In this document: piece by piece, positions 801-14,715 of the stretch
Layout of the letters: every line of letters begins with the position of its first letter
How positions within the stretch are numbered: position 1 is the stretch's first letter
Origin: Patescibacteria group bacterium
Lineage (GTDB): Bacteria > Patescibacteriota > Gracilibacteria > Peribacterales > Peribacteraceae
Length of the DNA: 36,250 nucleotides
Direction: 5' to 3'
Assembly (NCBI GenBank): GCA_018814875.1
Contig: JAHIYH010000018.1
Coordinates: 1 to 36,250 of the forward strand
Notes under the pieces: model-generated
The model's input: only the letters and a program-made list of their open reading frames with translations
Told to the model about the DNA's origin: nothing
Databases searched by the model: none
Made by a program: the position numbers and the translations under genes

Positions 801-1733
801 CTAAGCTTTTGCAAATGTACGTCGTGTGATCCACGTGAGTCCTATAATACTCAATGCAAATACAATCCAACTGCTTGCTCCTGTCTCGGGTTGGCTGAAA
901 GGTTTGTGTACAGAATTGATTGGAGGAGGAGATGAAATCTGATTTGATTTACCGATTACATTAGTATTAAGTGATAGATTTCTGTCTATATTTGGATTGG
1001 TGGGGATGTTTGCTTTTGGTACAGGAAGCTGGGTCGGAGGTGTAGTCGGAGGTGTGGTAGTAAATGTTTCTGGTGTGTTACTCAAAATATCAATTGGTTC
1101 ATCAGCAACAGGTGGATCGCTTGTGTCGGAAGGTGGTGTAAGTGGCGCAGTAGGAAGCAGAGGTGGAGTAGGAGGCAACTTATCTGGTGGTAGTTCATCT
1201 GCAGGTTCCTGAGATTCCGAAGTAGGCAGAGTGGCAACACCTTCAGCAACAATAATTTCACCGTTTACAGTTTCTGATATGACGGAAGAGTAAGTGTATG
1301 TACCCGATGCGATGTCATCGGAAATCTCAAAGTTAATTTGTTCTCCTGGGAAGACAGTAGGTGTGTATAAACAATCTCCGTCTGGATTACATAGATCTAA
1401 GGATTCAAGAATATGAGGGATCGCCTGTTCATTGATCCATGTAATAGTTTGTCCTTGATGTACTGTCACGCTTTCTGGATCTACGCCATTTTCAGTAATG
1501 TGAATGATAGGAGAGGAATCGGATACTTGTCCCATTATTATAGAAGATTCGTGGTAGTATGTGAATGCGAGGGAACTTACAATAAGCATCCCAAGAACTG
1601 CTGCAGGTTTCCTAGAGACAGGAATCCCCGAAGATAGTTGTGATTCATTTGATGATTGTTCATTGGTTGAATGTACAGGCACTGTTTGCTCTTCTTTGCT
1701 GGTTTCGTGCCAGTGAGGATGCATATGGCTCAT
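801..1733 (-). CDS. Surface protein: cupredoxin-like domain, Pro-rich stalk, sorting tail
   Basis: 310 residues. The N-terminal cytoplasmic part is His-rich (HMHPHWH at residues 3-9), followed by a membrane/signal segment at about 43-60. Residues ~75-165 look like an EfeO/plastocyanin-type cupredoxin fold (segments VTVHQGQTITWIN, IPHILES, FPGEQINFEI, GTYTYSS, GEIIV). The usual C-x2-H-P-x-M copper loop is replaced by Ser/Val/Thr residues, so a type I copper site is unlikely. Residues ~175-280 form a Pro/Thr-rich stalk. The tail is QPETG (near 281-285), a hydrophobic helix and RR, the layout of a sortase sorting signal. Its ATG overlaps the stop of the upstream cohesin gene (ATGA), implying translational coupling. 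Specific function unknown. Confidence 0.85.
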   Translation of the reverse strand: MSHMHPHWHETSKEEQTVPVHSTNEQSSNESQLSSGIPVSRKPAAVLGMLIVSSLAFTYYHESSIIMGQVSDSSPIIHITENGVDPESVTVHQGQTITWINEQAIPHILESLDLCNPDGDCLYTPTVFPGEQINFEISDDIASGTYTYSSVISETVNGEIIVAEGVATLPTSESQEPADELPPDKLPPTPPLLPTAPLTPPSDTSDPPVADEPIDILSNTPETFTTTPPTTPPTQLPVPKANIPTNPNIDRNLSLNTNVIGKSNQISSPPPINSVHKPFSQPETGASSWIVFALSIIGLTWITRRTFAKA

Positions 1734-3283
1734 AATTTAGGTTTCAAAGTAGTTACAACCAGTTGGCGTCTGGATGCAAAAACAGTTCCAATTACAGCTG
1801 ATACAAATAGAAGAATGACGAGAATGGAAGGAATTCCAGTCTCACCGGGTACAGTTTTTGTATTATGAACTGGATTTGCAGGTGGCGTATTTGTTTGATC
1901 ATCGAATGTGACACTTGTTGATAGAGGAGCGGTAGAACTCGCGGCATTTCCAACTTCGACAGAAATTTCATTACTGAATGCACTCTCTTCGTCGCTGATA
2001 CTTACTGCTCGTATTGCAAAGTAATATCTGGTTCCTACAGGTAGCGATTGGAGAACAAGGCTTTGCATAGCGCCTTCAATGGTTTTGCGTTGGATGTACT
2101 GACCGGTTGTTGTTCCATAGTAAACGTTATAAGCCTTCAAGCGGGATGTCTCCAGAGAATCCCATCCTAGGAATACAGAGTTGCCTTCTGTTGTGACACG
2201 GAAATTCTGTACTTGTAGTAGTGCAAAAGCAGTACTCTGTGGCTCATTATCTGGAGGAGTGTTTGTATCCGGAGAAGATGGCGGTTGAGTGATACGTTCC
2301 TGACAGAGACCATTGATACAGTGTCCGCTTTCGCATTCTCCATTATCACTACATGGGCTTCCATTAGGAAAGAACGTATCCTCATCTTCTTCAGATGTGC
2401 AGACATCATCCGTGCATAGGTTGCTCTCGCATTCACTATCATTACTACAATCACTTCCGTCTGGAAGAGGAGTTGGATCGTTACTTGAACAAATGCCACT
2501 TAAGCAGTTATCACTTTGGCATTGGCTGCCTATTTGGCAGGCTTCGCCGTTTGCGAGTAAGGAATCATAGTTGTTTGTATTCTCACCATCTTCGTTAACA
2601 TCTATAAAAATAACATGAAGACTTCCAGGATCAGATGCAAGAGCCGAAATCCCGTCTGATTCGGTATTACTTTTCTTCATGACTTTTGTGTGTCCTCCCT
2701 GTTGTACGTCATAGAAGTTGATCATGATACCTGAAGAAGGAGTATCGATTACTCTGAATTTGATGCGTGCGACAGCTATCCTTTTAATAGAGGGCTCATC
2801 TCCATCTTCTGCAGATGCATCCACCATTACAAAGCCATCTTCAGTATCAAAATCTTCTTCCCCAGGAGATATAATTCCAAACACTTCATTTACATCAATG
2901 CTGATTCCTTTGAGCACGGTGGTGTCGTAATTGAGCCATGATCGAACATGTTGAATGCCTATTTCATCTTTGTTTTCTACTACGATATCAATATCTAATA
3001 TGTCGCCATTCTTCAGGGGATTTGTACGTAGAGTGCGTGGATTTTCTACAGCGAAACTTAGGCATTCTTCTTTATCCAGATCAATGAGAGTTTCAATATC
3101 AGGAATCGTTCCAAGCATCCAATCATCATTAAGTTCACCAAAAACACAGTGTGGTTGCAAGGTAATCGTAATGTCATCTGATGTTTGTGCATGAGTAATA
3201 TTTATAAAGCTAAGAGTGCACAATGATAGGATGCACATACTTATGATTGCTTTCTGCCGATTTTTAAAGGCACTCATATTCAT
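1730..3283 (-). CDS. Cell-wall-anchored cohesin / Cys-rich / FnIII protein
   Basis: 517 residues. A signal peptide covers ~1-32 (hydrophobic core, ending THAQ). Residues ~85-225 resemble a cohesin domain: GDILDIDIVVEN, a WLNYDTTVLKGI strand, RIAVARIKFRVID and a glycine-containing final strand. Three four-Cys modules follow at ~245-330, each about 26 residues with the pattern G-x2-C-x5-C-x-S-x2-C-x4-C. A fibronectin type III domain lies at ~355-445 (VQNFRVTTEGNSVFLGWD, YNVYYGT, YYFAIRAVS). The C-terminus is VPGETG, a hydrophobic helix and RR, a sorting-signal layout. It starts 11 nt after the dockerin gene, so the three genes probably form one operon in which this protein is the anchored receptor. 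Start choice between the two ATGs (residues 1 and 3) is open; no Shine-Dalgarno is seen. Confidence 0.88.
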   Translation of the reverse strand: MNMSAFKNRQKAIISMCILSLCTLSFINITHAQTSDDITITLQPHCVFGELNDDWMLGTIPDIETLIDLDKEECLSFAVENPRTLRTNPLKNGDILDIDIVVENKDEIGIQHVRSWLNYDTTVLKGISIDVNEVFGIISPGEEDFDTEDGFVMVDASAEDGDEPSIKRIAVARIKFRVIDTPSSGIMINFYDVQQGGHTKVMKKSNTESDGISALASDPGSLHVIFIDVNEDGENTNNYDSLLANGEACQIGSQCQSDNCLSGICSSNDPTPLPDGSDCSNDSECESNLCTDDVCTSEEDEDTFFPNGSPCSDNGECESGHCINGLCQERITQPPSSPDTNTPPDNEPQSTAFALLQVQNFRVTTEGNSVFLGWDSLETSRLKAYNVYYGTTTGQYIQRKTIEGAMQSLVLQSLPVGTRYYFAIRAVSISDEESAFSNEISVEVGNAASSTAPLSTSVTFDDQTNTPPANPVHNTKTVPGETGIPSILVILLFVSAVIGTVFASRRQLVVTTLKPKL

Positions 3284-3294
3284 GATGGGATGGG

Positions 3295-3624
3295 TTAACG
3301 AAGAGAGAGAGACTTTAGAATGCTCAATGCATCAGCGACTGTGAGCTGACCATCCTTATTCGGATCAGCTCGTAGTTGCGCAGGAGTAGCTTCGGCGTAC
3401 CCCTGTGAAATTTCCAGGATGATTATTACATCCTGAAGGTCTCTGCTCCCTGATCCATCCACATCACCTTGTTCTTGAATACTTCCTGCCTCAATTAAGG
3501 TGACAGGTTGTACTTCTCCAACAGATTGGATGCCGATAGCGAAGGAACTGACAACACATGCTGTGCCAAGCATCAGCACACGTGAGTTTCTTCGCGAGAA
3601 GAGGGAAAGGAATTTGGTATACAT
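3295..3624 (-). CDS. Secreted dockerin-domain protein
   Basis: 109 residues. A signal peptide or N-terminal membrane segment occupies ~15-33. Residues ~53-109 form a type I dockerin: two Ca-binding loops, GDVDGSGSRDLQD and ADPNKDGQLTVAD, each followed by a short helix (VIIILEIS and ALSILKSL). Nothing but a short linker is attached, so this is a stand-alone dockerin without any catalytic module. Dockerins bind cohesins in a Ca-dependent way; the next gene encodes the only cohesin-like domain in the window, so the two are probable partners. It is the first gene of the operon. A -10-like TATACT lies 8 nt before the ATG. Confidence 0.88.
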   Translation of the reverse strand: MYTKFLSLFSRRNSRVLMLGTACVVSSFAIGIQSVGEVQPVTLIEAGSIQEQGDVDGSGSRDLQDVIIILEISQGYAEATPAQLRADPNKDGQLTVADALSILKSLSLR

Positions 3625-3686: not shown

Positions 3687-3750
3687 GGCTTATGGGCTAA
3701 TTGGCTTGTTGGCTATTAGCTAAAAGCCAATAGCCAATAGCCTATAAGCC
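3687..3750. repeat. Word hairpin, GGCTATTGGCT type
   Basis: An imperfect inverted repeat of about 30 nt per arm. The left arm repeats GGCTTAT/GGCTAATTGGCTT/TTGGCTATTA; the right arm is its complement (AGCCAATAGCCAATAGCC). It sits between divergent genes (dockerin operon and holA), so it is not a simple gene-end terminator. Confidence 0.8.
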
Positions 3751-3777: not shown

Positions 3778-4764
3778 ATGTACACTACGAATATGTCCCA
3801 AATCTTCATTTTCTCTGGTCCCAACAGATTTACTCTTTATGAGGAAAAAAAGAGGTGGGTGGGTAATTTCATCCAAAAGCACGGTGATGAGAATTTGCTG
3901 ACAGTAGATGCAAAGGGACTTACGATGCGCGATCTTCTGGATGAAGTATCTGTTGCACCTTTTATTGCTAGTAATCGTTTAGTGGTAGTAGACGGGCCAA
4001 TGAAATGTAAAAAAGAAGAGGCACAAAGTCTTTCTAAACAGATTCATCCACAGGTGATTCTTCTCTTTGTTGTTCATTTGGATCCATTACGAAAAGGAAA
4101 GATACCTGCCATTATGAAAGAGATTGAAAAGATTTCTGATCATCGGCAGTTTCCGAAAGTAACTAGATCAAGCCTTATTGGATGGATTGATGAAAAGTGT
4201 AAGCAGAACAGTGGGTCCATTGGAAAAGATGCACGAGATCTACTTCTAGAAATTTCTGGTGAAGATCAGGGCATGCTCTCGCAAGAGATTATTAAGCTCT
4301 GCCTTTATACTAAAGGAAAGGAAATTACCAAGCAGCATGTTTTGGATCTTTCGATCACTGCGGGGGAGAGTGAAGTCTGGCATCTGATGGATTTACTTGG
4401 TGCTGGTAAAGCTGAGGAGGGAATCAAATATGTTAAGGGTTTGTTGGAAAGAGGGGAGAGTCCGTACAGTCTTTGGACAAGACTCTTGTGGGTGATCTCT
4501 CAACTCACTCTTGTTTGGACTGCAGTTGATAGTGGTATCACACATCCTGCTGCGATTGCGAAGGAGGTTGGTGTTCCGCCTATTACAGCGCGGTCATTGT
4601 TACCATGTGCACGCAGACTAGATAAAGCGTCATTAACTCGTATTGTTGACCTTATAGCGACCATGGATCGAGACCTAAAAACAGGAGCATATCGTTCTAC
4701 TGCGGAAGCACCTGAAGAGCTAAGTGCGTTGATTGATAGGTGTATTTTGGCTTTTAGAGAATGA
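3778..4764 (+). CDS. holA: DNA polymerase III delta subunit
   Basis: This is the clamp-loader subunit that opens the beta clamp. The 328-residue length fits the family (about 330-345). Recognisable parts are the N-terminal FIFSGPNRFTLYEEKKRW (degenerate P-loop region), NRLVVVDGP, the helical middle with DQGMLSQEIIKL, and the C-terminal collar domain with MDRDLKTG, a typical delta-subunit signature. Two starts are possible: the ATG at 3778 with TAGTAT 7 nt upstream, or the ATG at 3793 (MSQIFIFSG) with TACACT 6 nt upstream; both would give nearly leaderless mRNA. The stop codon TGA lies in the first AATGAAAA word of the following repeat. Confidence 0.9.
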   Translation: MYTTNMSQIFIFSGPNRFTLYEEKKRWVGNFIQKHGDENLLTVDAKGLTMRDLLDEVSVAPFIASNRLVVVDGPMKCKKEEAQSLSKQIHPQVILLFVVHLDPLRKGKIPAIMKEIEKISDHRQFPKVTRSSLIGWIDEKCKQNSGSIGKDARDLLLEISGEDQGMLSQEIIKLCLYTKGKEITKQHVLDLSITAGESEVWHLMDLLGAGKAEEGIKYVKGLLERGESPYSLWTRLLWVISQLTLVWTAVDSGITHPAAIAKEVGVPPITARSLLPCARRLDKASLTRIVDLIATMDRDLKTGAYRSTAEAPEELSALIDRCILAFRE

Positions 4765-7087: not shown

Positions 7088-7328
7088 CAACAATCAACAC
7101 GCTCGACCTTCGGCCTCGCTCTCAACAATCAACACGCTCGACCTTCGGCCTCGATCTCAACAATCAACTGTTGATTGTTGAAAGGGCGCGTAGCGTCCGT
7201 GTTGAAAGTTGAAAGCGAAGCGTCCGTGTTGAAAGTTGAAAGCGAAGCGTCCGTGTTGAAAGTTGAAAGCGAAGCGTCCGTGTTGAAAGTTGAAAGCGAA
7301 GCGTGTTGATAGCCCGAAGGGGCGTGTT
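7088..7328. repeat. Compound word-repeat array between greA and carB
   Basis: Two 35-bp direct copies (7088-7122, 7123-7157) each combine CAACAATCAACA with CGACCTTCGGCCTCG. A third CAACAATCAAC forms a perfect 11-bp-arm palindrome with GTTGATTGTTG (7158-7180). Then come three full and one partial 27-bp units (7200-7226, 7227-7253, 7254-7280, 7281-7303) built from TGTTGAAAGTTGAAAG and CGAAGCGTCCG. The right half is roughly the complement of the left. No gene is seen. Confidence 0.9.
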
Positions 7329-10814: not shown

Positions 10815-10843
10815 TTGTGAGTTCTCCGCCTACTTGCTACGAT
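10815..10843 (+). promoter_or_regulatory. Leaderless promoter of the SLH gene
   Basis: TTGTGA (10815-10820), a 17-bp spacer and TACGAT (10838-10843) with an extended TGC in front. The ATG at 10850 follows 6 nt after the -10, so the transcript should begin at the ATG. Confidence 0.6.
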
Positions 10844-10849
10844 GCTGTC

Positions 10850-11692
10850 ATGAAGAATTCACAACTTGTCATCGGTACATTCATCAGCTTGCTAATGGGT
10901 TCTCCAATAACTTTTGCAGCTCTGCCGGAGTCGCTTGAGTTTTTTCAAAAGGATTTAGATTATGCAATTTTACAGGAGATGCAGCAGAATTCTGATCAGG
11001 TAAATGAATTCGATGCTGAGCTCTTTCCCGATCGCAAAGATGATTCCGTTGTAGAAAAAATGAAGAAGTCAGCTAATGAAAATACATCGCACGTTACGGT
11101 GGAAATACGTGGCAAATCTGTAGTGCTCGAGGATGTTCCAAGATATGCGTGGTTCGCAGAGTTTGTAGAGGACATGGCTACTCGCGGAATTATTTCTGGT
11201 TACCAAGATGTAGACGGAAACCCACTTGGTCAGTATGGTCCGGCAGATAACGTGACTATTGAGCAGCTTTCTAAAATTGCGGTGGAAGCAGCTGGGATTG
11301 ATTTGGAATATTGCACAAATTCTATAAAGAATGAGAATGCACAGGGTAGTTGGTCTGAATCATATATCCGTTGTGCAGAGAGTTACGACTGGGCTATCTA
11401 CAGCGATGGCACTGTAGATGTTTCACGCTCTGCAACTCGTAGCGAGGTTGTCACTACAATTCTTCAGGCCTTTGAAGCGAATTTCAAATCATTGGATGGG
11501 ACTGTGTTTAAAGATGTTAATGCAACAACCGAATTTGGTGTTGCAATAGAAACAGCCGCCGCTGATGGTATTGTCTCTGGATTTACAGACGAGGAGGGGA
11601 ATCTGACTGGTTTTTTTGGCCCTTCTGATTTTGTGAATCGTGCAGAGATTGCGAAGATTGTGTCGATGGCTCTTAAAATATATCTTAGATAG
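10850..11692 (+). CDS. Secreted protein with three SLH motifs
   Basis: 280 residues from the ATG at 10850 (the frame is open from GTG 10817). Signal peptide: MKNSQLVIGTFISLLMGSPI, cut after a TFAA-like site. Three S-layer-homology motifs follow at about 95-150 (DMATRGIISGY, YGPADNVTIEQLSKI), 168-210 (CAESYDWAIY, ATRSEVV) and 219-273 (AADGIVSGF, FFGPSDFVNRAEIAKI). SLH domains bind secondary cell-wall polymers. There is no other domain, so this may be a structural surface protein. The promoter shape favours 10850 as start. A strong hairpin terminator follows. Confidence 0.85.
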   Translation: MKNSQLVIGTFISLLMGSPITFAALPESLEFFQKDLDYAILQEMQQNSDQVNEFDAELFPDRKDDSVVEKMKKSANENTSHVTVEIRGKSVVLEDVPRYAWFAEFVEDMATRGIISGYQDVDGNPLGQYGPADNVTIEQLSKIAVEAAGIDLEYCTNSIKNENAQGSWSESYIRCAESYDWAIYSDGTVDVSRSATRSEVVTTILQAFEANFKSLDGTVFKDVNATTEFGVAIETAAADGIVSGFTDEEGNLTGFFGPSDFVNRAEIAKIVSMALKIYLR

Positions 11693-11708
11693 TTTCGTCA
11701 AAATGTCG

Positions 11709-11748
11709 AAAAGTCAAAAGGTCGAAAAGTCGACCTTTTGACTTTTTT
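11709..11748 (+). terminator. Terminator built from GTCGAAAAGTC words
   Basis: A 17-bp perfect stem (11709-11725 with 11730-11746) closes an AAAG loop; the right arm ends in six T. The preceding bases (ATGTCGAAAAGTC) are another copy of the word, so this is a word repeat acting as a terminator for the SLH gene, 16 nt after its stop. Confidence 0.85.
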
Positions 11749-11809
11749 AAAACGTATCTAGCATACAATTTTAAAAATTAACAATTTACCAATGTAGTAC
11801 AAAAGGATT

Positions 11810-13264
11810 ATGTTTCCATTTAAGTTTCCCCCTTTTTCTATGCGTATCCGAATTTTTAGTTATTCAATTGCCTTGGTTACTGCAGGTATCCTTCTAGGTG
11901 TTGGAGGAACTGGCACTGCCGCTATTATTTTTGGATCGGATGTATTTCCTGATGTGCGTACGGGGATGTATTACGATGATGCAATCGGGGAGCTTAGTTC
12001 GGTAGGAATCATAAATGGATATGATAATGGTAATTTTGGTCCAGATGATTTTGTTACACGAGGGCAGGTTGCAGTTTTGATGCAGCGATTGCGTGATGAT
12101 ATGGTCAGTCAGATTGTCGCACAGGAATCATCAGATTCATCGAGTTCTCTTGCGGCTTCACTAACAGGTGGTACAGAAGATGATGAGGACACAGATGTTA
12201 CGACCACTGTTCAAGCCGAGCCAACAGAAGCAGGCGCGATGCGTTTTACTATAGATCATTACAGTGTGGACGAGGAATCTGGAATGGCACGTATTAGTGT
12301 TGTTAGGACAGGAGGACGCAAGGGTGCAGTCACAGTTGATTATACTATTGCAGCGGGGACAGCAACTGCAGGAGAGGATTATGAAGTTGTATCTGGAACA
12401 CTTAGTTTCGCCGATAGCGAGACGAGTATCACTTTTGTAGTTCGAATTCTGGATGACGATCTTGAAGAGGGTGATGAAACAATAACAGTTGCACTTAGCG
12501 AACCAACGGGAGGTGCCACTATCACGACGCCCAGTACTGCGGTACTTACTATTAAAGATGATGAAGTGACAGCTTCTTCCGGTGACAGTAATGGTGAGGC
12601 AGTTATCTCGTTTGGCGCTTTAGGTTACGATGCTGTTGAAGATGGTGAAACTATTGCGATTACGGTGGAGCGTAGTAATGATACAGGCACAGCAAGTGTG
12701 AATTTTGCTACAAGTGATGGCACTGCGTCGAATTCGAATTACACTCCGACCAGTGGGACACTCTCTTTTGCAGCCGGCGAATCCAGAAAGACTTTCACTA
12801 TTGATGTTAAAGACAATAATGATATTAATGGTAACAAAACGGTGAACCTTACATTAAGTGGTCCTATAGGAGTGGTGCTTGGTACCAGTTCTGCCCTTCT
12901 TACTATTGTGGATGATGAATTGGCATCCTTTGGTTCTGGTTCGATAAAATTCGCACGTTCCATGTATGAAGCTACGGAACATTCAGAAAAGGCCGTTATA
13001 GAGGTGACACGTGCTAAAGGTACAAATGGCATTGTCACCGTGGAGTACTCCACAAACGGTGGGACTGCTGTAGCAGGATACGATTATGAGGTCACGTCAG
13101 GAATTCTTACGTTCCAGTCGGGTGAATCTAAGAAGTCGTTTATTGTTCCGCTTATTAAAGATGAGTTGAATGATTCGGGCGAGAGGGTGAACCTCAAGAT
13201 AGAGAATCCAACGAATGGAGCGGTTCTTATGTCGCCTACTACTGCGACGTTGGAGATTCAGTGA
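11810..13264 (+). CDS. Surface protein: one SLH motif and three Calx-beta domains
   Basis: 484 residues. Signal/membrane segment ~12-40. One SLH motif at ~44-95 (DVFPDVRTGMYYDDAI, GIINGYDNGNFGPDDFVTRG). After an acidic Ser/Thr linker come three Calx-beta domains at ~145-245, 260-365 and 370-484, each with the typical A-(G/S)-x-(D/N)Y-x2-(V/T)-SG-x-L-(S/T)-F core and, in the first two, a closing LTI-x-DDE; the repeated acidic loops should bind Ca. The C-terminus ends on the third domain without a sorting tail. Weak AAAAGGA sits just before the ATG. Possibly an adhesin or surface-layer protein that works with the SLH protein upstream. Confidence 0.88.
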   Translation: MFPFKFPPFSMRIRIFSYSIALVTAGILLGVGGTGTAAIIFGSDVFPDVRTGMYYDDAIGELSSVGIINGYDNGNFGPDDFVTRGQVAVLMQRLRDDMVSQIVAQESSDSSSSLAASLTGGTEDDEDTDVTTTVQAEPTEAGAMRFTIDHYSVDEESGMARISVVRTGGRKGAVTVDYTIAAGTATAGEDYEVVSGTLSFADSETSITFVVRILDDDLEEGDETITVALSEPTGGATITTPSTAVLTIKDDEVTASSGDSNGEAVISFGALGYDAVEDGETIAITVERSNDTGTASVNFATSDGTASNSNYTPTSGTLSFAAGESRKTFTIDVKDNNDINGNKTVNLTLSGPIGVVLGTSSALLTIVDDELASFGSGSIKFARSMYEATEHSEKAVIEVTRAKGTNGIVTVEYSTNGGTAVAGYDYEVTSGILTFQSGESKKSFIVPLIKDELNDSGERVNLKIENPTNGAVLMSPTTATLEIQ

Positions 13265-13406: not shown

Positions 13407-13497
13407 AGGATGAATTCAGAATTTAGAATTAAGAATTCAGAATTCAATTCGCTAATATCGTCTAATTCTTAATTTTGCATTCTAAATTCTAAATTGG
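13407..13497. repeat. Word hairpin, AGAATT type
   Basis: Left arm TTCAGAATTTAGAATTAAGA plus further AATTC words; right arm TCTAATTCTTAATTTTGCAT plus TCTAAATTCTAAATTGG. The right arm contains the sortase stop codon and its last codons (Pro-Ile-stop). Confidence 0.85.
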
Positions 13498-14715
13498 AAG
13501 TGCCTCCGGCCTCGCTTTTGGTAAGGAATCGTGCCCCCGTTCGCCAACTTCCAATGCAATGCCTGTTTGTGGGTCCACTTCCTCGGAAGTAATTATCAAC
13601 CTGCGCAAGGTTGTTCCAATTGGAGTACACGTCATAAGTGTTGCAACGCGCCTGTCTACTGGCTGATCGAGTACTGTCACATCGGATGGTTTTACTTCTT
13701 TCTTGCTACGCACAATGTAGCGGTGTTTATCGCCGCCGTAATAAACCCAGTACTCATCACCCGGTTCCAATTCATGCAATCTTGCGAAAACGTTCTTATA
13801 CTTTCCAGGTGCCCAAGGGTAATAAGAGCTGTGTCCTGTAACAAAGAAGTTTCCGGCTTGGCCGGGTTTTGCAGTTCCCGGATAGTGCACCACTCCCATT
13901 TTTAGTGCATCCTGAATATCTTCTTCAACCTGTCCCCAATCTTCCCGCAGAAGCGCTTCGTAAGAAGGCGTTACCAAAGGAATATTCAGTTCCATCTTTG
14001 GGATAATGATGCGATTTTCCGGTGGTCCTATACTTGGTAGAAATGCGAGAAGATTTCCGTCATTGCTTCCTGCTACAGCCAAAGATGGGCTTCGCAATAG
14101 TTTGTCCTTCAGTGCAGAATCTACAGATGCTGTGAGTGCCTGAACCGAACGTACGTGATCTATTGGATTCAAACGTGTAGTAACAATACTCCAGAAACTT
14201 TGGTAATTAAGCGTGACGAAGAGTGCCACGAAAATTGCAGTAAATGTTCCGCCAAAGCGCACGGTATCCAATACGAAGAGTGTGATACGGCTGTACTCCT
14301 TTGGCTCTTTATTTCTTCGTGGAACCCACACCGGTTGAGTGAGAAATGCCAATGTGTTCCTTCCACCTCTCTTCAAATGTTTTCCTGCAGACTTTAGGGA
14401 ACCTCCTGCACTGCGATAACTAAAGCTATATTGATTTGCACCTTCACGAATAACGCCGCTTGTGGTGCGAACAAGTTGTCCATGCACCGCCTTGCGATAT
14501 TGTTTAACAGCGTCTCCCACATTGGGAATCTTGATATTCTTTAGAGGATTCTTGCGAGCATCTTTTTGAGTGTTCCATTGCGTTTCACCTTTAACCCACG
14601 AGAGCGAGATATCATCTTCATTTCTCTGAGGAATGTTGGAATTGCTTGAAGGAAGAATAATGTTTCCATTTTCATCGTATTCAGCGCGATGTTGGTGGGG
14701 GTTCAAGGGAATCAA
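13489..14715 (-). CDS. Membrane-anchored sortase
   Basis: 408 residues. A long N-terminal cytoplasmic part (~1-150) precedes one membrane helix at ~150-172 (FGGTFTAIFVALFVTLNY). The extracellular sortase domain (~235-395) keeps all catalytic residues: His in TGHSSYYPW, Cys in LMTCTPIG, and Arg in LRRLIITSEE. It cleaves cell-wall sorting signals and transfers the protein; the two PETG/GETG-tailed proteins at 801-3283 are the likely substrates. Start is TTG at 14715 or TTG at 14706; an extended -10 TGCTATAAT (14727-14719) directly upstream favours the latter. No Shine-Dalgarno. The stop lies within a word repeat. Confidence 0.93.
   Translation of the reverse strand: MIPLNPHQHRAEYDENGNIILPSSNSNIPQRNEDDISLSWVKGETQWNTQKDARKNPLKNIKIPNVGDAVKQYRKAVHGQLVRTTSGVIREGANQYSFSYRSAGGSLKSAGKHLKRGGRNTLAFLTQPVWVPRRNKEPKEYSRITLFVLDTVRFGGTFTAIFVALFVTLNYQSFWSIVTTRLNPIDHVRSVQALTASVDSALKDKLLRSPSLAVAGSNDGNLLAFLPSIGPPENRIIIPKMELNIPLVTPSYEALLREDWGQVEEDIQDALKMGVVHYPGTAKPGQAGNFFVTGHSSYYPWAPGKYKNVFARLHELEPGDEYWVYYGGDKHRYIVRSKKEVKPSDVTVLDQPVDRRVATLMTCTPIGTTLRRLIITSEEVDPQTGIALEVGERGHDSLPKARPEALPI

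Follow-up and report, generated by a model that had tools for sequence, protein, structure and literature searches.

A single cohesin and a cargo-free dockerin encoded in one conserved operon of Candidatus Peribacteria

Cohesins and dockerins are known mainly from cellulosomes. Scattered noncellulosomal examples of both modules, including those of Archaeoglobus, have been reported (Peer et al. 2009, as cited in PMC9012536), and in anaerobic methanotrophic (ANME) archaea the modules are numerous and variable and occur in multi-cohesin proteins (PMC9012536). In a cultivated Saccharibacterium, the dockerin-domain envelope protein SEML1_0315 is essential, as is a separate FnIII protein, SEML1_0890 (PMC10633639). 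In the Peribacteria genome paper, sortase A and exported proteins rich in Cys are named, but neither cohesin nor dockerin (PMC4736985). Why noncellulolytic organisms have these modules is an old question, for which the operon described here is a clean case: it has one pair, no cargo, one conserved gene arrangement, and a visible course of evolution by which a large dockerin protein became a bare one. The operon lies in contig JAHIYH010000018.1 (C2) of a Patescibacteria genome of 1.42 Mb and 98.8% completeness; the entire contig of 36,250 bases is the window of this study. Searches of the literature turned up neither an account of this operon nor an order-wide single pair whose dockerin is free of cargo.

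The operon consists of three genes in a row on the minus strand, ORF1 (open reading frame 1; 3295-3624), ORF2 (1730-3283), and ORF3 (801-1733). ORF1 and ORF2 are 11 nucleotides (nt) apart, and ORF2 and ORF3 share 4 nt (ATGA). The original prediction had given these coordinates and a domain list for the three products, both of which were exact on rechecking, and had seen in the genes a tight codirectional unit, which is indeed kept as an operon across Candidatus Peribacteria, an order whose members are tiny and uncultured. The order was sampled with 74 genomes, from which homologues were gathered for the domain tests. We suggest that the pair is more likely to belong to the cell-surface architecture than to load enzymes, and we see about an even chance that it is a 1:1 noncellulosomal cohesin-dockerin pair in which a dockerin held in the membrane is joined to an FnIII protein processed by a sortase.

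ORF1 (DOC, 109 amino acids) is made up of an N-terminal hydrophobic segment with the motif SFxxGIx[TS]AG (residues 15-36; 3517-3582), a conserved linker, [ED]VxPxxLI[EQ]AG (residues 37-52; 3469-3516), and a dockerin (residues 53-107; 3304-3468), with no further domain. Residues F28 and G31 of the hydrophobic segment are invariant in 58 homologues. The dockerin (PF00404), recognized from the alignment, the profiles, and a fold model, contains the two F-hand repeats of about 22 residues, with the motifs GDxDGxGxxDxxD and ADPNxDGxLTxDD. The first predicted Ca-binding loop runs from D54 (58 of 58 homologues) to D65 (57 of 58) at 3430-3465, and the second from D87 to D98 (both 57 of 58) at 3331-3366.

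ORF2 (COH, 517 amino acids) begins with a signal peptide (residues 1-33; 3185-3283), for which the alignment indicates Ala32 as the probable −1 residue. A PHC..C motif, whose C46 and C74 are invariant, and the cohesin domain together occupy residues 38-230 (2594-3172), as delimited by profiles and the fold model. They are followed by three Cys-rich units (residues ~244-330; 2294-2554), which vary between lineages, the insert being kept in the window and in close relatives and being shorter or missing elsewhere. An FnIII domain (residues 350-445; 1949-2236), which is the best-conserved domain of the protein in the alignment, precedes the C-terminal tail.

The Pfam scores of the window proteins are below the curated cut-offs: ORF1 alone reached 14.8 bits with Dockerin_1 (cut-off 22.9), and ORF2 reached 18.4 bits with Cohesin (PF00963; 23.0 bits for the isolated domain, cut-off 24.1) and 24.6 bits with fn3 (cut-off 25). 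These scores alone do not exclude a chance resemblance to dockerin and cohesin, which was rejected on the strength of profiles of 56-61 homologues and two fold predictions. Dockerin_1 matched 48 of the 56 ORF1 homologues from the order (best E value 6.6e-9), and Cohesin matched 55 of the 61 homologues of the N-terminal domain of ORF2 (best E value 2e-11). Proteins from sister lineages exceeded both cut-offs, with 31.2 bits for a dockerin protein and 37.6 bits for a cohesin protein. When the profiles were compared with the Protein Data Bank (PDB), ORF1 found dockerins among its top matches, interspersed with EF-hand proteins, and the ORF2 N-terminal domain found cohesins. In the AlphaFold model of ORF1 the dockerin region has a pLDDT of ~85-93, and all leading Foldseek matches are dockerins (1ohz_B, TMt 0.83) with modest E values of at least 0.05. 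The cohesin region of ORF2 was modelled with a pLDDT of 87.3 and a pTM of 0.81; the top 50 Foldseek matches in PDB are cohesins only (best E value 2.6e-8), and the best VIA Z score is 14.4 to 4uyq_A (root-mean-square deviation 2.3, 136 aligned residues). The original prediction had made its case depend on the fold of residues 85-225, and this is predicted to be a cohesin fold.

Both partners share their folds, and the dockerin its duplicated calcium loops, with type I cellulosomal complexes (PDB 1ohz and 4uyq). However, the locus differs from those complexes in that it has no enzymes, no carbohydrate-binding module was found, and there is one cohesin per genome. A likeness in arrangement is the cohesin-FnIII module of a Clostridium perfringens glycoside hydrolase (PDB 2w1n; Z 13.1), which is also noncellulosomal and has a single cohesin beside an FnIII domain; there the cohesin is carried by a glycoside hydrolase, whereas neither gene of the present pair encodes an enzyme.

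A search of the window genome found exactly one dockerin and one cohesin. A search for other dockerin proteins had been proposed along with the prediction, and it yielded none; with no second dockerin and no second cohesin in the genome, the claim that the locus is not a normal scaffold has held. The dockerin is without an enzyme and the genome search revealed no multi-cohesin scaffoldin, features that set the locus apart from cellulosomes. Since the genome has a single, bare dockerin and a single cohesin, an ordinary cellulosome with a scaffold is rejected. The same copy number applies to the order, where one dedicated dockerin and one dedicated cohesin are present per genome with few exceptions. 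This resembles the noncellulosomal modules mentioned above (Peer et al. 2009; ANME and Archaeoglobus), which, in the account of PMC9012536, are likewise true domains without cellulosomes and pair outside cellulose digestion. Unlike in ANME archaea (PMC9012536), there is one pair per genome, in one operon conserved order-wide, and the dockerin is free of cargo. In one relative (genome G020), dockerin-like proteins with planctomycete-style N termini are encoded at L205 868-2910 and L206 1217-2893, and these N termini suggest that the contigs are contaminants of that genome.

Far from being an isolated oddity, the operon belongs to the core loci of Candidatus Peribacteria. The cohesin protein is present in 73 of the 74 genomes and the dockerin in 70. 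The four genomes lacking a dockerin are G035 (75% complete), G049 (66% complete), and the pair G042 and G043 (loci L207 and L208), two species of genus g21, in which the dockerin gene is cleanly gone and ORF2, ORF3, and holA are kept. This genus is a natural deletion that would be useful for asking what the cohesin does alone. The gene for DNA polymerase III delta, holA (3778-4764, plus strand), is the divergent neighbour of the operon; it lies outside the system and marks the locus throughout the order. The arrangement of holA and ORF1 > ORF2 > ORF3 is kept, and BLAST over 61 loci recovered ORF1 in 58, ORF2 in 61, ORF3 in 55, and holA in 60. The operon genes are always codirectional and in most cases only a few bases apart, and the commonest spacing of ORF2 and ORF3 is the 4-nt overlap. 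Outside the order, no full-length small dockerin protein was found in 279 further genomes of the class, and strong matches to the cohesin were confined to a few sister families.

These sister families (f34, f7, f8, and others) carry a longer cluster with a homologous cohesin-FnIII gene. It encodes a surface protein of 560-1300 amino acids with a C-terminal dockerin, then a giant of 1300-1800 amino acids with Ig-like/TIG/Big domains, and then a cohesin of ~200 amino acids whose signal is of the lipoprotein type (LSGC, for example). After these come the cohesin-FnIII protein and a transmembrane (TM) protein that shares the kind of N terminus and tail found in ORF3. The sister loci resemble the window locus in their cohesin-FnIII protein, their last gene, and their gene order, but they retain the large protein that ends in a dockerin, the giant Ig-like protein, and a lipoprotein cohesin in addition to the other cohesin. 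When searched against Pfam, the giant proteins matched Ig-like/TIG/Big domains only and revealed no ligand. In family f34, the long dockerin clusters are headed by a YidC-like gene (L118 14717-15739, where the 60KD_IMP match is subthreshold; L120 and L129 carry such a gene at their ends), perhaps a dedicated insertase.

The long form also occurs inside the order, in the basal genome G033, at the same chromosomal place beside holA and a greA-like gene. The dockerin protein of G033, of 565 amino acids, matches both the N terminus of ORF1 (E value 6.7e-4) and its dockerin (E value 2e-13). In the tree of the cohesin-FnIII protein, G033 branches as sister to the rest of the sampled order (support 0.97), and the long-form families lie outside. 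The match at both ends, together with the tree position, indicates that the bare dockerin was derived by loss of the middle. Read most simply, these comparisons make the long locus the ancestral one: the giant and the lipoprotein cohesin were lost in the lineage of the window, and the bare dockerin represents both ends of a large protein whose middle has gone.

The C termini of ORF2 and ORF3 resemble sorting signals. Across the order they have an xPxTG-like motif followed by a TM segment and RR; tail comparison places them at 1760-1852 in ORF2 (PGETG and the hydrophobic SAxIGTxxAxRRQ) and at 804-893 in ORF3 (QPETG, TM segment, and RR). A tail-profile search of the genome found no other convincing protein with a tail of this type. 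Two weak extra matches were rejected, as their frames look noncoding. The tails may be substrates of a sortase. Three sortases of the window genome score over the cut-off, and the probable anchoring enzyme, of 408 amino acids (13489-14715, minus strand), has the catalytic motifs TGHSS, TLMTC, and LRR with His, Cys, and Arg and is syntenic across the order. A sortase was found in 73 of the 74 genomes, and in 41 genomes one shares a contig with the operon, 7-28 kb away (median 10.7 kb). Beside the sortase of the window, at 10817-13264, lie two consecutive SLH-domain genes, of which the latter has three Calx-beta repeats, a neighbourhood of S-layer or surface proteins.

ORF3 (CUP, 310 amino acids) is composed of a conserved, probably cytosolic N terminus, xHPxWxxT...VPV...SRKP (residues 1-43; 1605-1733), a TM segment, AAxxGI... 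(residues 44-63; 1545-1604), a cupredoxin-like fold (residues 76-165; 1239-1508), a Pro-rich stretch, and the tail. It had been described as a cupredoxin-like protein with a sorting tail, which the profile and the tail bear out, but the conserved N terminus and the TM segment after it, both seen in the alignment, had been left out. ORF3 scored 22 bits with Cupredoxin_1 (cut-off 27), and the fold call comes from its profile, which matches plastocyanin and amicyanin with an E value of 2e-10. The type 1 copper ligands (His, Cys, His, Met) are not conserved in the alignment: His107 is present in 30 of 43 sequences, the Cys position is Ser in 40 of 43, and the second His was not seen. An active blue-copper protein is therefore not supported.

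We propose that the conserved hydrophobic segment near the N terminus of ORF1 would tether its dockerin to the outer side of the cell membrane, where the single cohesin of ORF2 would bind it, probably in a Ca-dependent manner. After export of ORF2, the nearby sortase would cleave its PGETG tail, and the FnIII and Cys-rich parts of ORF2 would be displayed; ORF3, with a similar tail, would be a membrane partner. Such a clasp would fasten the FnIII protein on display to the membrane or envelope and would load no enzymes on a scaffold. The module probably arose by reduction of an ancestral locus that encoded a large dockerin-terminated protein, a giant Ig-like protein, and a lipoprotein cohesin. 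A wider proposal, which we offer tentatively and hold at less than an even chance, is that this is an order-wide, calcium-switchable clasp and a general envelope fastener of reversed polarity, in which a membrane-held bare dockerin, derived from a hollowed-out dockerin protein, is the anchor and the cohesin of the sortase-processed FnIII protein is the cargo.

That ORF1 and ORF2 belong together is indicated by their common operon, the 1:1 copy number, and the near-invariant calcium loops. Covariation was assessed over 47 loci with distances corrected for HolA, a weak test that is open to shared-operon effects; the corrected distance correlation was 0.32-0.54 between ORF1 and the ORF2 domains and 0.04-0.18 for the ORF3 domain. 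Several points nevertheless weigh against the proposed clasp. The dockerin covaries more strongly with FnIII (0.54) than with the cohesin (0.32), and the test thus gives the cohesin no special place. Genus g21 is without the dockerin yet has kept ORF2, so ORF2 can work without this dockerin. Strict LPXTG is absent from both tails, and the predicted sorting tails thus stand as to motif, TM segment, and RR but not as canonical signals. ORF1 has plausible signal peptidase I sites after G36 or A46, so it may instead be released: for a cut ahead of residue 37, the −3 residue is T/S and the −1 residue is G, and Ala46, found in 57 of 58 homologues, has a mostly aliphatic or small residue two positions before it. 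In that case ORF1, which carries no cargo, would be cleaved, and the soluble dockerin would plug, cap, or chaperone the ORF2 cohesin until it reached the surface or another partner. We consider this unlikely. At the same loci, the mean column entropy of the ORF1 hydrophobic segment (1.79 bits) is close to that of the dockerin (1.69 bits), whereas the cleavable signal peptide of ORF2 is unconserved (2.99 bits); this difference and the invariance of F28 and G31 favour a retained membrane segment, and the segment is still recognizable at the start of the long G033 protein. Of the bare secreted dockerin in the original prediction, bareness is upheld, the dockerin being the sole domain, but the N terminus may be a membrane anchor and secretion is in doubt.

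The loss of ORF1 in g21, where the rest was kept, and the descent of ORF1 as a reduced remnant of a large protein would also suit a noncognate relation, with ORF1 reduced to a vestige and the cohesin binding some other target. A vestige, however, would not keep the calcium-loop residues near-invariant order-wide, exactly one dockerin and one cohesin are found per genome, and the partial distance correlation of ORF1 with the ORF2 domains contrasts with 0.11 for ORF3, so that we regard this relation as very improbable. It is improbable, too, that ORF2 is a sortase-polymerized or sortase-linked pilus-like fibre, with the dockerin protein forming the base or the tip and ORF3 serving as an accessory in the membrane. 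The restriction of the sorting-like tails to ORF2 and ORF3, the syntenic sortase, and the giant Ig-like proteins of the sister loci, which are typical of surface stalks, would agree with a fibre, but neither a pilin motif nor a class C sortase was shown, and one FnIII protein by itself offers no direct indication of polymerization. A normal cellulosome-like scaffold, on which ORF2 would recruit dockerin enzymes encoded elsewhere, is already largely refuted and hardly to be expected: the modelled cohesin fold appears to be a true one and, in a few related genomes, other large proteins contain dockerin-like stretches, but these stretches are mostly internal, two of them are in proteins resembling planctomycete contamination, and the window genome has no second dockerin and one cohesin without a multi-cohesin scaffoldin.

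For the cohesin-dockerin pair, conservation in practically every genome of an order whose searched genomes are small (about 0.7-2.1 Mb) suggests an important envelope role. Such a role would fit the essential dockerin-domain protein of the cultivated Patescibacterium (PMC10633639). SEML1_0315 is likened to ORF1 by its description as a dockerin-domain envelope protein of the same phylum, but no cohesin or operon was reported for Saccharibacterium (PMC10633639). Its essentiality makes an envelope or host-contact role plausible and is no proof for this operon.

Scans of the window with Rfam and for promoters and terminators gave nothing above chance. A small Cys-rich ORF without any Pfam match lies near the contig edge (111-545). 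In the divergent intergenic region between holA and the dockerin gene, an inverted repeat of 13 nt with a loop of 3 nt (3709-3737) is a possible regulatory site. Just downstream of the operon, at 688-744, there is a perfect 9-bp tandem repeat, TACCTTCCT, in 6.3 copies, and upstream of greA two tandem arrays adjoin each other at 7088-7304, one of 2.3 copies of 35 bp and the other of 4.3 copies of 27 bp.

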